Part shown: positions 5 through 10,920 of the stretch, piece after piece
How positions within the stretch are numbered: the stretch's first letter is position 1
Layout of the letters: every line of letters starts with the position of its first letter
NCBI GenBank assembly: GCA_022600395.1
Contig: JAHZKM010000082.1
Location: forward strand, 1-15,779
Reading direction: 5' to 3'
DNA: 15,779 nt
Origin: Pseudomonadota bacterium
Lineage (GTDB): Bacteria > Pseudomonadota > Gammaproteobacteria > PS1 > Pseudothioglobaceae
Program-made: the position numbers and the translations under genes
The notes under the pieces: generated by a model
The model's input: the letters and a program-made list of their open reading frames with translations, nothing else
Database searches by the model: none
Told to the model about the DNA's origin: nothing

Positions 5-30
5 AAAAACCCCATATAAACGGGGTTTTT
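5..30 (-). terminator. Rho-independent terminator of the bamD-MFS-ssb operon
   Basis: An inverted repeat pairs AAAAACCCC (5-13) with GGGGTTTTT (22-30) around an 8-base loop. Read leftward, as the upstream ssb transcript would be, the GC core is followed by a run of T (complement of the A run at 4-9). It begins about 20 bases past the ssb stop codon. The T run at 26-30 would let it also work on transcripts arriving from the left. Confidence 0.85.
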
Positions 31-49
31 AAGAAGACCAGATAAAAGG

Positions 50-4780: not shown

Positions 4781-4975
4781 ATGAATTGGACAGACTCCCT
4801 AGATATTGCAATTGCCTTGGATGAGGCGTACCCTGATATAGATCCTTTAACCATTGGATTTGTTGATCTTAGAGACAAGGTGATGGCGTTAGAAGAATTT
4901 GAAGATGATGAGGAAAAATCGGGTGAAAAAATTCTTGAGGCCATTCAAATGAACTGGATTGAAGAAAAAGAATGA
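4781..4975 (+). CDS. iscX: Fe-S cluster assembly protein IscX
   Basis: Small acidic protein of 64 residues matching IscX (YfhJ), a winged-helix-like protein that binds the cysteine desulfurase IscS and iron and tunes iron-sulfur cluster assembly. Recognisable family segments are MNWTDSLDIAIAL, YPDIDPLTIGFVDL and the C-terminal EKILEAIQMNW; E. coli IscX has 66 residues. I chose the ATG at 4781 because the protein then begins with the family N-terminus. An upstream TTG at 4733 would only add Phe/Ile-rich residues read from an AT-rich leader. Its stop overlaps the tolB start as ATGA (4972-4975), so translation is probably coupled. It is unusual that iscX sits here rather than at the end of an isc operon. 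Confidence 0.92.
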   Translation: MNWTDSLDIAIALDEAYPDIDPLTIGFVDLRDKVMALEEFEDDEEKSGEKILEAIQMNWIEEKE

Positions 4976-6247
4976 CCAAGCTCCTAGCTACTTTTTTAAC
5001 GTTATATAGCGCAACTGCTTTTGCTATTTTAGAAGTAACTATTTTAAAAAAATCAGAAGACGCCTTTCCGATTGTTATTTCTCCATTTTTAGTTAAAGGT
5101 GATGCTCAACAAGGTGAGTCTATCGCTCATATTATGCGCGACAATTTTAACCGCTCTGGTGAATTTAGCGCCTCTAGCGCTGATTATGTTATCACTAGCC
5201 AAGTTGATTTTGATAAGTGGCAGACTAAAAAAGTTGAGGCTATTGTTATTGGCAAACTTGAACAAGTTAGTAAGAAAATTTTTAATGTTGAAATTGAGTT
5301 GTTAGATATATATTCGAAAAAAACACTCTATTCTAAAAAGTTTGCAGTACACAATAGTGGTATTCGACGCATTGCTCATTATCTTTCTGACCAAATTTAT
5401 TTTGCCTTATTAGGTAAAAAAGGTTCGTTTGATACTCGTCTGGCTTACGTAACAGTTACTAATAAGGATCAAGGAAATCGAGAATATCGCTTAGAAATTG
5501 CTGATTCAGATGCACAAAATCCGCAAACTATTCTCAGAGCTGCGAGTCCAATTTTATCGCCCGTTTGGTCTCCAGATCAAAACAAAATCGCTTATGTGTC
5601 ATTTAAAAATGGGCGTTCTGAAGTTTTTAATACAATATCCATTTATGCGCCGAAAAACGCAAAAATTACCTTATTTTGATGGTATTGCCTCATCACCTGC
5701 TTGGCACCCCAATGGTGAGAGCATTGTTTTGACATTATCCAAAGAAGGTAACAAAGATATTTACTCCTATCACTTAAAAGAAAAAAAGTTAACTAGGTTA
5801 ACTAGTGATAGAGGTATTGATACAGAGGCGAGTTTTTCTAATGATGGTGAGCGTATTGTCTTTACCTCTAATCGTTCAGGACAGGTTCAGGTTTATATTA
5901 AACATTTAAAAACTGGCAAGATTACTCGGGCAACTTTTGCAGGAAGTTACAATGCAAAAGCAGTATTTTCTCCTGACGGAAAAAGTCTGGCTTTAGTGCA
6001 TCGAGTAGATAAAGATTATCGTATTGCGTTATTAGATATAGCCACTAAAGATTTAATGGTGATGACGCAAAACAAGTTAGATGAATCGCCTTTTTTTTCA
6101 CCAAATGGTAGTATGATTATATTTGCAACCAATAAAGATGATTCTGGTGTACTGTCTGTTGTGTCTATTTTAGGCCTGCAAACATTTGAACTGGCGAGCA
6201 AAGCTGGCGAAGTTAGAGAGCCAAATTGGTCGCATTATTCTAAATAA
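4972..6247 (+). pseudogene. tolB: tolB, Tol-Pal periplasmic propeller protein, split by a frameshift
   Basis: TolB is the periplasmic partner of Pal in the Tol-Pal envelope system. Frame one (4972-5679) gives a signal peptide (MTKLLATFLTLYSATAFA), the N-terminal TolB domain (segment PIVISPFLVKGDA, then GEFSASSADYVITSQVDFDKW) and the first propeller blades (SPVWSPDQNKIAYVSFKNGRSEVF), then a stop. The rest is in the next frame, from about 5655 to 6247: GIASSPAWHPNGESIVLTLSK, then ASFSNDGERIVFTSNRSGQ, AVFSPDGKSLALVHR, FFSPNGSMIIFATNK and the closing VREPNWSHYSK. One base too many (or two too few) between about 5620 and 5677 explains it. Possible sites are TTTTTAA (5624-5630), the A5 runs at 5653 and 5661, and T4 at 5674. 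Joined, it would be about 424 residues, near E. coli TolB (430). Everything else looks well conserved, so either a base-call error or a recent mutation is possible. The start overlaps iscX by 4 bases. Confidence 0.85.
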
Positions 6248-8866: not shown

Positions 8867-10744
8867 TTACGGTTGAAACTTGGAAGTCATAGGGTAGCGT
8901 CGCTCTTTACCAAAAGCATTTGGACTAATTTTTGGCCCTGGAGCGCTTTGTCTACGCTTGTATTCATTATTGAGCACTAATCGGCTAATACGCTCTACGA
9001 TTTGCTGGTTAAAGCCTTGTTTGATGATTTCTTTAACAGAAAGTCTTTGCTCAACAAATAACTCTAGAATGGCATCCAGCTCATCATATGGTGGTAAAGA
9101 GTCTTGATCAACCTGATCAGGTGCAAGCTCTGCAGAAGGCTCTCGATCGATCACTCGACCAGGAATGATATAAGATTGGGTGTTACGGTATTTTGCCAAT
9201 CGATAAACCATAGTCTTTGATACATCCTTAAGTGGGGCAAATCCACCAGACATATCGCCATATAAAGTAGCGTAACCAACAGCCATTTCTGACTTGTTGC
9301 CCGTAGTTAACACGATTTTTCCAAGTTTATTAGAAATAGCCATTAGCAGGGTGCCACGCACTCGAGCTTGTAGGTTTTCTTCAGTAGTGTCAGTTTGCAT
9401 GCCACTAAATACGCCACTCAATTGAGTGTTAAAGCTTTCAACCATAGAATGGATGCTAATCTCCTGGTAATCGATATTCATAGCACTAGCTTGAGCTTTA
9501 GCATCTTCTAGACTCATGTTGGAGGTGTAAGTGTAAGGCATCATAATCGCTTTAATATTTTCTCCACCAATGGCATCTGCTGCAATAGCAAGCGTTAATG
9601 CAGAGTCAATGCCACCAGATAAGCCAATAACTACCCCGTTAAATACGCCATTTTTTTGAATATAATCTTGAGTGGCTAGCACTAACGCATCATAAATCGT
9701 TTTTTCAATACTAACAGCTTCTTCTGTATGCTTTTGTGCTGTGGCGAGTGAGGTTGTGGCAGTTTTAAAAAAAGGGAGTTGATGTGTGATTTGCGCTTTG
9801 GCATTCATAGCAAATGAGCCACCATCGAAAATAATTTCATCTTGGCCACCTACTAAATTGACATAAACAAAATTTACTTGATTTTCAAGTGCGCGTTTTT
9901 TAACTTCCTCAAGGCGTTGCTGATGTTTACCAACATGAAAAGGGGATGCGTTAATACTAATAATACAGTTTATACCGTATCGGGCAGTTTCTTTAACAGT
10001 TTGAGCGTTCCAAATATCGGCACAGACAAGTAAGCCAATACGCTGACCTTTGATTGTAAAAACAAATGGCTCGCTACCAGCGCTAAAGTAGCGTTTTTCA
10101 TCAAAAACACTATAGTTAGGGAGTTGTTGCTTATGATAAATTTGAATTGAGCGTGATTGAATTAAGTAAGCAGCATTGTATAGTTTGCCGTCTTGCTGAT
10201 GAGGTGCGCCAAAAACAATAGAAATAGCCCCAGGAACGGCATTTTTAATTTTATTAACCGTTTCTTCAACTTGTTGGATAAAGCCAGTTCGAAGTAAAAG
10301 ATCTTCAGGCAGATAGCCTGTTAATGATAATTCTGGAAAAACCAACAGATCGCTACCTTGTTGGGCGGCCTTTATACTCAAATCAATAATTTGTTGAGTG
10401 TTATTAATCAAATCGCCAACAGTAGGGTTAATTTGTGCAATATCAATTTTGATAGACTCAGAGATGTTTGAAAGATTTTCTAGCTGTTCTTGCCAAAATA
10501 TAGCCTTTGCTTTATCGCCTTTCATTTTTGCATGTTCAAGTTTAGTGTTAGCAACCACTTCAGCAGGATTTATATTCAAAATATCGGCAAATAGCCAAGC
10601 ATGAGTCTCAGAAAGAGCGGATTTTCCTGATTTGTATTTACTTAAATTAGATTGGTTAATGCCATATTCTTGTGAGATTTTATAGTCGGAAAAGCCAGTC
10701 TTTTTGCGTACTTTGGTGAGATAGTCTTTGGTTTTATTAGCCAT
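8867..10744 (-). CDS. nadE: Glutamine-dependent NAD+ synthetase fused to an N-terminal helix-turn-helix domain
   Basis: NadE makes NAD+ from deamido-NAD, ATP and glutamine. Residues about 98-625 are a complete NadE. The glutaminase (nitrilase-fold) domain has triad E138 (FPELSLTGY), K205 (IYHKQQLP) and C241 (LLVCADIW). The synthetase domain has the PP-loop GLSGGIDSAL (374-383), TGNKSEMAVGYATLYGDMSGG and a C-terminal RRQSAPGPKISPNAFG. Ordinary two-domain NadE proteins start at about IKIDIAQINPTVGD, here residue 98. The extra residues 1-92 look like a Cro/CI-type helix-turn-helix of the phage-related kind (DUF3693-like): TGFSDYKISQEYGINQSNLS, KYKSGKSALSE, LNINPAEVVANTKLEHAK, then KAIFWQEQLE. 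The join has no stop and no ATG, GTG or TTG just before residue 98; the nearest internal ATG is codon 74. No Shine-Dalgarno precedes the ATG. The enzyme call is firm; the DNA-binding role is inferred. Confidence 0.93.
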   Translation of the reverse strand: MANKTKDYLTKVRKKTGFSDYKISQEYGINQSNLSKYKSGKSALSETHAWLFADILNINPAEVVANTKLEHAKMKGDKAKAIFWQEQLENLSNISESIKIDIAQINPTVGDLINNTQQIIDLSIKAAQQGSDLLVFPELSLTGYLPEDLLLRTGFIQQVEETVNKIKNAVPGAISIVFGAPHQQDGKLYNAAYLIQSRSIQIYHKQQLPNYSVFDEKRYFSAGSEPFVFTIKGQRIGLLVCADIWNAQTVKETARYGINCIISINASPFHVGKHQQRLEEVKKRALENQVNFVYVNLVGGQDEIIFDGGSFAMNAKAQITHQLPFFKTATTSLATAQKHTEEAVSIEKTIYDALVLATQDYIQKNGVFNGVVIGLSGGIDSALTLAIAADAIGGENIKAIMMPYTYTSNMSLEDAKAQASAMNIDYQEISIHSMVESFNTQLSGVFSGMQTDTTEENLQARVRGTLLMAISNKLGKIVLTTGNKSEMAVGYATLYGDMSGGFAPLKDVSKTMVYRLAKYRNTQSYIIPGRVIDREPSAELAPDQVDQDSLPPYDELDAILELFVEQRLSVKEIIKQGFNQQIVERISRLVLNNEYKRRQSAPGPKISPNAFGKERRYPMTSKFQP

Positions 10745-10770
10745 TTTTTTTTATTGTATTTATACATGTT

Positions 10771-10853
10771 TTTTTTACCTATTATAGTTATTTTTTACCA
10801 CCTATGTAATTAAGTTATTTTAGTTAAAAAATACTAGTAGTGGTAAAACCACC
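10771..10853 (-). promoter_or_regulatory. Candidate nadE promoter with flanking TTTTACC boxes and palindromes
   Basis: On the minus strand, TATAAT (complement of 10781-10786) with ATTACA (complement of 10805-10810, 18-base spacer) is the best promoter for nadE, giving a leader of about 30 bases. The box TTTTTTACC occurs at 10771-10779 and again at 10791-10799. These copies are exactly 20 bases apart and lie on either side of that -10 box. A third, shorter copy is inverted at 10842-10848 (GGTAAAA), inside the palindrome GTGGT-AAA-ACCAC (10840-10852), which touches another palindrome, TACTAGTA (10832-10839). The arrangement looks like operators, and the obvious candidate binder is the helix-turn-helix end of the neighbouring NadE. 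Promoter strength and binding are not shown by sequence alone. Confidence 0.45.
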
Positions 10854-10920
10854 ATAAATATAATATAACTATATGATTTTTAATTAAATTATTCATTTTA
10901 AAAAATAATTAAAAACTAGA
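10854..10920. repeat. Nearly pure A+T stretch with an inverted repeat
   Basis: The middle of the gap between nadE and the Sel1 gene is almost entirely A and T. It holds a perfect inverted repeat of TTTTTAATTA (10877-10886) and TAATTAAAAA (10906-10915). It lies just upstream of the rightward promoter and could act as an UP-element or bendable DNA. Because it uses only A and T, chance is also a fair explanation. Confidence 0.4.

Follow-up and report, generated by a model that had tools for sequence, protein, structure and literature searches.

The window analyzed here is a 15,779-nucleotide stretch of contig JAHZKM010000082.1 (assembly GCA_022600395.1) from a gammaproteobacterium of the family Pseudothioglobaceae, and the gene in question is nadE. 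It occupies 8867-10744 on the minus strand and encodes a 625-residue protein in which a Cro/CI-type helix-turn-helix (HTH) domain at the N-terminus is followed by a nicotinamide adenine dinucleotide (NAD+) synthetase (hereafter HTH-NadE). Judged from sequence, HTH-NadE is probably a NAD+ synthetase with a second function: it would bind DNA at the nadE promoter and so regulate its own expression, with autorepression confined to nadE the most likely mode. A preliminary description of the gene had proposed an enzyme-regulator that senses a metabolite (deamido-NAD, NAD+, or glutamine) and controls transcription. The regulator part of that proposal gained support from a conserved operator-like array at the gene's own promoter, an invariant recognition helix, and apparently relaxed selection on the N-terminal head in reduced genomes; control of genes other than nadE found no support, exact sites being nearly confined to nadE.

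Domains of HTH-NadE and spread of the fusion

The gene had been described as a single intact frame with a complete glutamine-dependent NadE, and profile searches bore this out. The frame comprises 625 codons plus a stop. Its glutamine-dependent NAD+ synthetase part (residues 98-625; 8870-10453, minus strand), delimited by profile and residue conservation, gave a full-length match to the NF010588 equivalog over residues 96-624 (732.5 bits against a curated cut-off of 479). The catalytic residues E138, K205, and C241 and the PP-loop S376-S381 (SGGxDS) are present and invariant in 45 proteins, and the nearest solved chains of this part are 5KHA and 4F4H; the NadE part thus looks intact as a glutamine-dependent NAD+ synthetase. 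In the head (residues 1-92; 10469-10744, minus strand), the Pfam profile HTH_3 (PF01381) matched residues 11-62 with 27.1 bits for the whole protein and 29 bits for the head alone, above the gathering cut-off of 23, and phage regulator profiles matched residues 3-92. These matches agree with the Cro/CI-type DNA-binding domain first assigned to residues 1-92; for the DUF3693-like tail assigned with it, a Pfam search returned no DUF3693 match up to an E value of 1. A DNA-binding domain and an intact-looking enzyme are accordingly found in a single chain, the combination that marks a trigger enzyme. Neither the nicotinamide mononucleotide (NMN) adenylyltransferase and ribosylnicotinamide kinase domains of NadR nor the biotin protein ligase domain of BirA was found in Pfam or among the 25 NCBIfam matches listed. 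Within its own genome, the whole-protein match to HTH-NadE was this gene only.

The spread of the fusion was followed in a family sample of 83 genomes, including Thioglobus, Ruthturnera, and SUP05; the order contributes no further genomes. Protein matches were obtained in 78 of them, six of which, all incomplete genomes, matched through a nitrilase-type paralogue only. Head and enzyme fell within one alignment in 70 of the 72 genomes with nadE, covering all 11 genera; the two exceptions are G003, where the alignment begins at a contig edge, and G056, where head and enzyme lie in separate frames. Six of the 70 fusions are broken or incomplete elsewhere (G066, G050, G024, G074, G020, and G031). 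Among the named relatives are Candidatus Thioglobus, Ruthturnera, Pseudothioglobus, and a mussel symbiont. In a class-wide draw, 227 of 274 genomes matched at an E value of 1e-30, and among the matches listed only three family members aligned from residue 1, the others starting at residues 74-129; no HTH was seen upstream at 37 unfused loci that were inspected closely. When residues 1-96 were searched against 5.8 billion proteins, 533 relatives of fused length were obtained. Among the 120 of these listed, CN_hydrolase was present in all and NAD_synthase in all but one partial protein, and many had no precomputed HTH_3 call. The HTH-NadE fusion is a trait of the whole family. The same domain order recurs in related genomes, and the idea of a local sequence error or recent accident, which two separate genes in relatives would have betrayed, does not hold.

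Recognition helix and operator-like array upstream of nadE

The recognition helix region (residues 29-37, INQSNLSKY; 10634-10660, minus strand) is identical in all 63 distinct proteins from non-reduced genomes, and in the same set the window 29-36 ties for the lowest entropy of 618 eight-residue windows. Many other exposed positions of the head are variable. Such invariance is what would be expected of a helix that reads DNA. Three residues outside the HTH (W84, F83, and K80) are likewise invariant.

By profile the head is phage-type, but no close donor was found in phage, viral, or plasmid searches. In a tblastn search of 50,697 phage records the head had no match at an E value of 1e-3, 14 pattern matches in viral contigs included no relative, and the plasmid search returned 15 Pseudomonas records only, with approximately 26-27% identity over at most residues 1-73. 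Members of the profile family phrog_4441 turned up in 7 of 229 genomes overall, 4 of them among the 226 genomes drawn from outside Pseudothioglobaceae; one of these four sits within an open frame of 1,368 codons and could be spurious. A head-only search gave 35 short proteins that look like fragments or truncated fusions.

The repeat unit RGTAWWWWWTAACTA occurs, in either orientation, directly upstream of nadE in each of 68 loci, which is a new observation. With up to one mismatch, 160 units were counted in the 150 bp upstream, at least one per locus, where dinucleotide-preserving shuffles would give 4.3. The loci L031-L052, which largely repeat the same genomes, were left out of the upstream counts and used as a background check, and L069 (G056) was left out for its separate frames.

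In the window, all elements of the nadE promoter lie on the minus strand within or close to 10760-10860, the region where binding had been predicted and where the conserved array was indeed found. The predicted -35 box ATTACA (10805-10810) and -10 box TATAAT (10781-10786), with a spacer of 18, together match 10 of 12 positions; the stretch holds six promoter-like sites, against 3.0 in shuffles. The conserved operator-like unit O1, GGTAAAAAATAACTA (10785-10799), lies inside the -35/-10 spacer, and a third half-site, GGTAAAA (10773-10779), follows the -10 box; GGTAAAAA at this half-site is invariant in 19 aligned loci. A second unit, O2, AGTATTTTTTAACTA (10821-10835), likewise assigned by sequence and conservation, is located 36 bp upstream of O1 and is overlapped by a 14-bp dyad, TACCACTACTAGTA (10832-10845), the perfect form of which, TACCACTAGTGGTA, is found in the relative L010. 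A further inverted repeat, GGTGGTTTTACCAC (10840-10853), was also called as a stem; a terminator-like match at 10838-10854 was read instead as part of these dyads. Farther upstream, 10866-10878 differs by one mismatch from WATCAANNNNTTR, the consensus of the integration host factor (IHF). Of 67 loci (L002, with 107 bp upstream, was left out), 48 carry an exact IHF-like site on the nadE strand, nearly all at -107 to -142, and matches in all numbered 50 where 2.7 were expected. This conservation would suggest DNA bending at the nadE promoter.

The upstream conservation could in principle reflect selection on a strong promoter or an mRNA leader to which the head does not bind. In favor of this are the sequence TAACTATAAT at the -10 box, which overlaps O1 and is invariant in the 19 aligned loci, and the persistence of the -10 box and most units in reduced genomes (see below). 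Units nevertheless recur well outside the -35/-10 region, in both orientations, with fixed distances of 36 bp (29 cases) and, for inverted pairs, 21 bp (19 cases), and Rfam gave no family match in the window, so we regard this explanation as very improbable. In the more distant genus g5, two facing units 21 bp apart form a 36-bp inverted repeat.

The sites are nearly confined to nadE. In its own genome, O1 is the only exact GGTAWWWWWTAACTA, and in 17 genomes searched 15 of the 16 exact sites, found in 11 genomes, are upstream of nadE; the remaining one is inside an open reading frame (ORF) that we read as purH from its translation. At 22 named loci, the 160 bp upstream contain 57 units and the remaining 229,189 bp contain 9. 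An 84-bp operator profile built from 19 loci matched the nadE upstream region of its own genome with an E value of 3.5e-21, the next match having 0.026. This second-best match (C118) overlaps with the beginning of a short ORF that precedes a gene we read as carboxylase-like, and no repeat array was seen there. In 20 other genomes the best match was upstream of nadE in 18, of which 17 had E values of 6.6e-5 or lower and G082 had 0.15. Some of the 20 contributed to the profile; G037, G041, G042, and G044 did not, and these four scored 60-74 bits. A further match away from nadE in a reduced genome (G035:C1:986006-986083; E value 2.6e-4) is possibly due to chance in AT-rich DNA.

A free-standing paralogue of the head was found in G045 (L091:4998-5252), 84 amino acids long and 51% identical, approximately 180 bp before an ORF whose translation we read as nrdA-like. 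The one-mismatch unit TAGATATAAAATACC lies 46 bp before the start of this paralogue and is the sole one in 10,264 bp; when the 150 bp concerned were shuffled 2,000 times, such a unit arose in 35 of the shuffles. On these sequence patterns, it is highly likely that HTH-NadE binds the nadE promoter.

Some fusion genes are interrupted. At L012 in the draft genome G066, a stop after codon 69 parts the head from the enzyme, with the upstream units kept; the 69-residue protein P0143 is probably the head of this locus, which was left out of the sets used for entropy and for nonsynonymous (dN) and synonymous (dS) divergence because its frame ends there. In three other draft genomes the fusion gene is likewise interrupted by a stop or a frame break (L067 of G050, L069 of G056, and L090 of G024).

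Drift of the head and damage to the array in reduced genomes

Four closed genomes of approximately 1.02-1.03 Mb (G034, G035, G038, and G043), probably of clam symbionts, belong to the genus holding Ruthturnera and constitute the reduced set. In six pairwise comparisons, the head had dN of 0.086-0.155, dS of 0.09-0.13, and dN/dS of approximately 0.8-1.3, and the enzyme part had dN of 0.014-0.022, dS of 0.16-0.22, and dN/dS of approximately 0.1. The ratio of head dN to enzyme dN was 6.0-7.9 in these genomes, 0.35-1.14 among eight larger relatives from the same genus (28 pairs), and 0.08-1.17 in 55 pairs from the genus of the window. In the reduced genomes, constraint thus persists on the enzyme but seems to be gone from the head, which appears to drift in a near-neutral manner; for this reason the head seems unneeded for catalysis. 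The array changes there as well. Three of the four lack the TACC...GGTA dyad through deletion, and in the other it can no longer be recognised; every one of the four carries an altered third half-site, and TATAAT stays. Profile scores fall to 23-35 bits, compared with 60-74 bits in seven larger genomes of the genus. The array is damaged, not gone, which amounts to a partial loss; the alternative that head and operator had been lost together outright was rejected because most units remain in these genomes.

Several observations count against an autorepressor of nadE only. Three of the reduced genomes retain both O1- and O2-type units and the fourth retains one unit; their recognition helix is mostly preserved, with changes at three positions, each seen in one genome only. 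The set probably represents one clade and hence a single event, and the apparently near-neutral ratio of the head comes from 89 codons. In G066 the units are kept despite the stop between head and enzyme. As for confinement to nadE, nine one-mismatch sites occur in the window's own genome, eight of them at places other than O2, and sites with up to two mismatches show no enrichment there (131, as against 221 with the pattern reversed). An exact GGTAWWWWWTAACTA site is absent from six of the 17 genomes, and the reversed control has nine exact matches in the same 17. The profile was applied to 150 first-look candidates per genome; in G007 and G008 its best matches are not at nadE, the units there being arranged differently. 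The 37 unfused loci, with no unit in 7,400 bp, are mostly GC-richer and make a weak control. Finally, the fold matches of the head include the XRE-like domains of MPnS and cyanase, which are not known to regulate.

This last point is also the starting point for a different explanation, in which the head, derived from an XRE repressor, has lost DNA binding and serves in structure or oligomerisation, as in cyanase and MPnS, and the repeats belong to another regulator. The invariance of W84, F83, and K80 outside the HTH would fit such a module, as would units that persist in reduced genomes beside a drifting head. Against a structural role stand a recognition helix as the invariant part, an enzyme that stays constrained where the head drifts, and a similar unit at the gene of the free-standing G045 paralogue; the near confinement of sites to nadE is, moreover, what an autoregulator predicts. 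We consider the module explanation unlikely and retain autoregulation by HTH-NadE.

Two observations concern other sequences. In the window, a gene that we read as TolB-like appears split into overlapping frames at 4972-5679 and 5498-6247 (plus strand), by either a real frameshift or an assembly error. At locus L092, the end of contig G081:C7 carries sequence that resembles a sequencing adapter, and this contig end is probably contaminated.

Proposed mechanism and comparison with known systems

In the mechanism we propose, a putative enzyme dimer would present two HTHs to the units, each of which is a 15-bp imperfect inverted repeat, and two HTHs on a dimer would therefore fit dyadic units. 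HTH-NadE bound in the -35/-10 spacer would hinder initiation by RNA polymerase, and we hold it likely that the protein represses rather than activates nadE. An operator in this spacer is in a position typical of repression. The fusion might instead bind and activate its own promoter or act as a plain level-keeping autoregulator without metabolite input, and we give this a minor but real share of the probability: sequence reveals neither sign nor ligand, and O2 is placed upstream of the -35 box, where activators can sit. On the other side, O1 fills the spacer and the third half-site follows the -10 box, and fusion to a ligand-binding enzyme would presumably be wasted on a plain autoregulator.

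For an autorepressor, the simplest loop would be one in which high enzyme or NAD+ turns nadE off, the signal being sufficient enzyme, perhaps in its NAD+-bound form. The block would be set when NAD+ is plentiful or when a substrate-bound state is absent. Candidate signals are NAD+, the deamido-NAD adenylate, glutamine, and concentration alone. NadE and BirA both form an adenylate intermediate. It is conceivable, though we put it at rather less than even, that HTH-NadE responds to NAD+ or to its catalytic state, so the metabolite sensing of the preliminary description stays tentative. More tentative still is the full scenario, in which this essential biosynthetic ligase would read its catalytic state (NAD+ or the deamido-NAD adenylate, at the active or an allosteric site) in a one-gene feedback; here a BirA-like principle would have been reached independently by capture of a phage-type repressor, fixed in the family, and would now be undergoing loss in the most reduced symbionts of the family. 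A block at high NAD+ is proposed because, for one related type 2 NadE-Gln, NAD+ acts as an inhibitor through an allosteric site; related type 2 enzymes are described as dimers (relevant passages of PMC7196632). The same passages state that little was known about regulation of the NAD pathway (PMC7196632).

All nine genomes tested for them contained NadA, and none contained the NrtR DNA-binding domain; separate NadR and NadQ proteins were not searched for. PII was found in 76 of the 83 family genomes, and the listed PII genes of G062 and G034 are far from nadE. We know of no NAD synthetase among enzymes that are DNA-binding regulators, and no report of an HTH-NadE fusion was found in titles and abstracts of open-licence PubMed Central (PMC) articles, which is weak evidence of novelty. 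If the reading is correct, the last step of NAD synthesis would be tied to transcription in one chain in small-genome bacteria of the SUP05/Thioglobus type, a family of ocean sulfur oxidisers. The reduced symbionts amount to a natural experiment, with drift in the regulator part of one gene and retention of its enzyme part.

PutA controls putA and putP, and its domains are unlike those of HTH-NadE. Few enzymes serve at the same time as DNA-binding regulators; PMC8249747 names five such trigger enzymes for Escherichia coli (BirA, NadR, PepA, PutA, and PyrH). PutA, like the proposed HTH-NadE, is both enzyme and repressor and, in a screen described in PMC8249747, was bound at no locus other than its own, but its pathway is proline catabolism. 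NadR of enterobacteria likewise joins a DNA-binding domain to an NAD-pathway enzyme and controls NAD synthesis at the level of transcription, as outlined in sections of PMC8249747 and PMC5343134; it is, however, of the NMN adenylyltransferase type and acts on nadA-pnuC and other genes, whereas HTH-NadE would catalyze the last step, with its own gene as the apparent target. BirA resembles HTH-NadE in evolution, its DNA-binding domain being present in part of the lineages only, but it is a biotin protein ligase that controls the bio operon and, in the passages of PMC5343134 on this point, is autoregulated only in Desulfovibrionales. BzdR also combines an N-terminal DNA-binding domain with an enzyme-derived domain, but its shikimate-kinase-like part is inactive and binds benzoyl-CoA, whereas the enzyme residues of HTH-NadE are intact; as portrayed in part of PMC3602430, BzdR shows the end state in which enzyme activity has been lost. 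Type 2 NadE-Gln with PII has the same general glutaminase-synthetase architecture as HTH-NadE but is regulated by NAD+ inhibition and by PII, a separate protein, and its description in the relevant passages of PMC7196632 includes no DNA-binding head. By analogy, then, the closest known system would be PutA in logic (one target, its own locus), NadR in pathway, and BirA in evolution.
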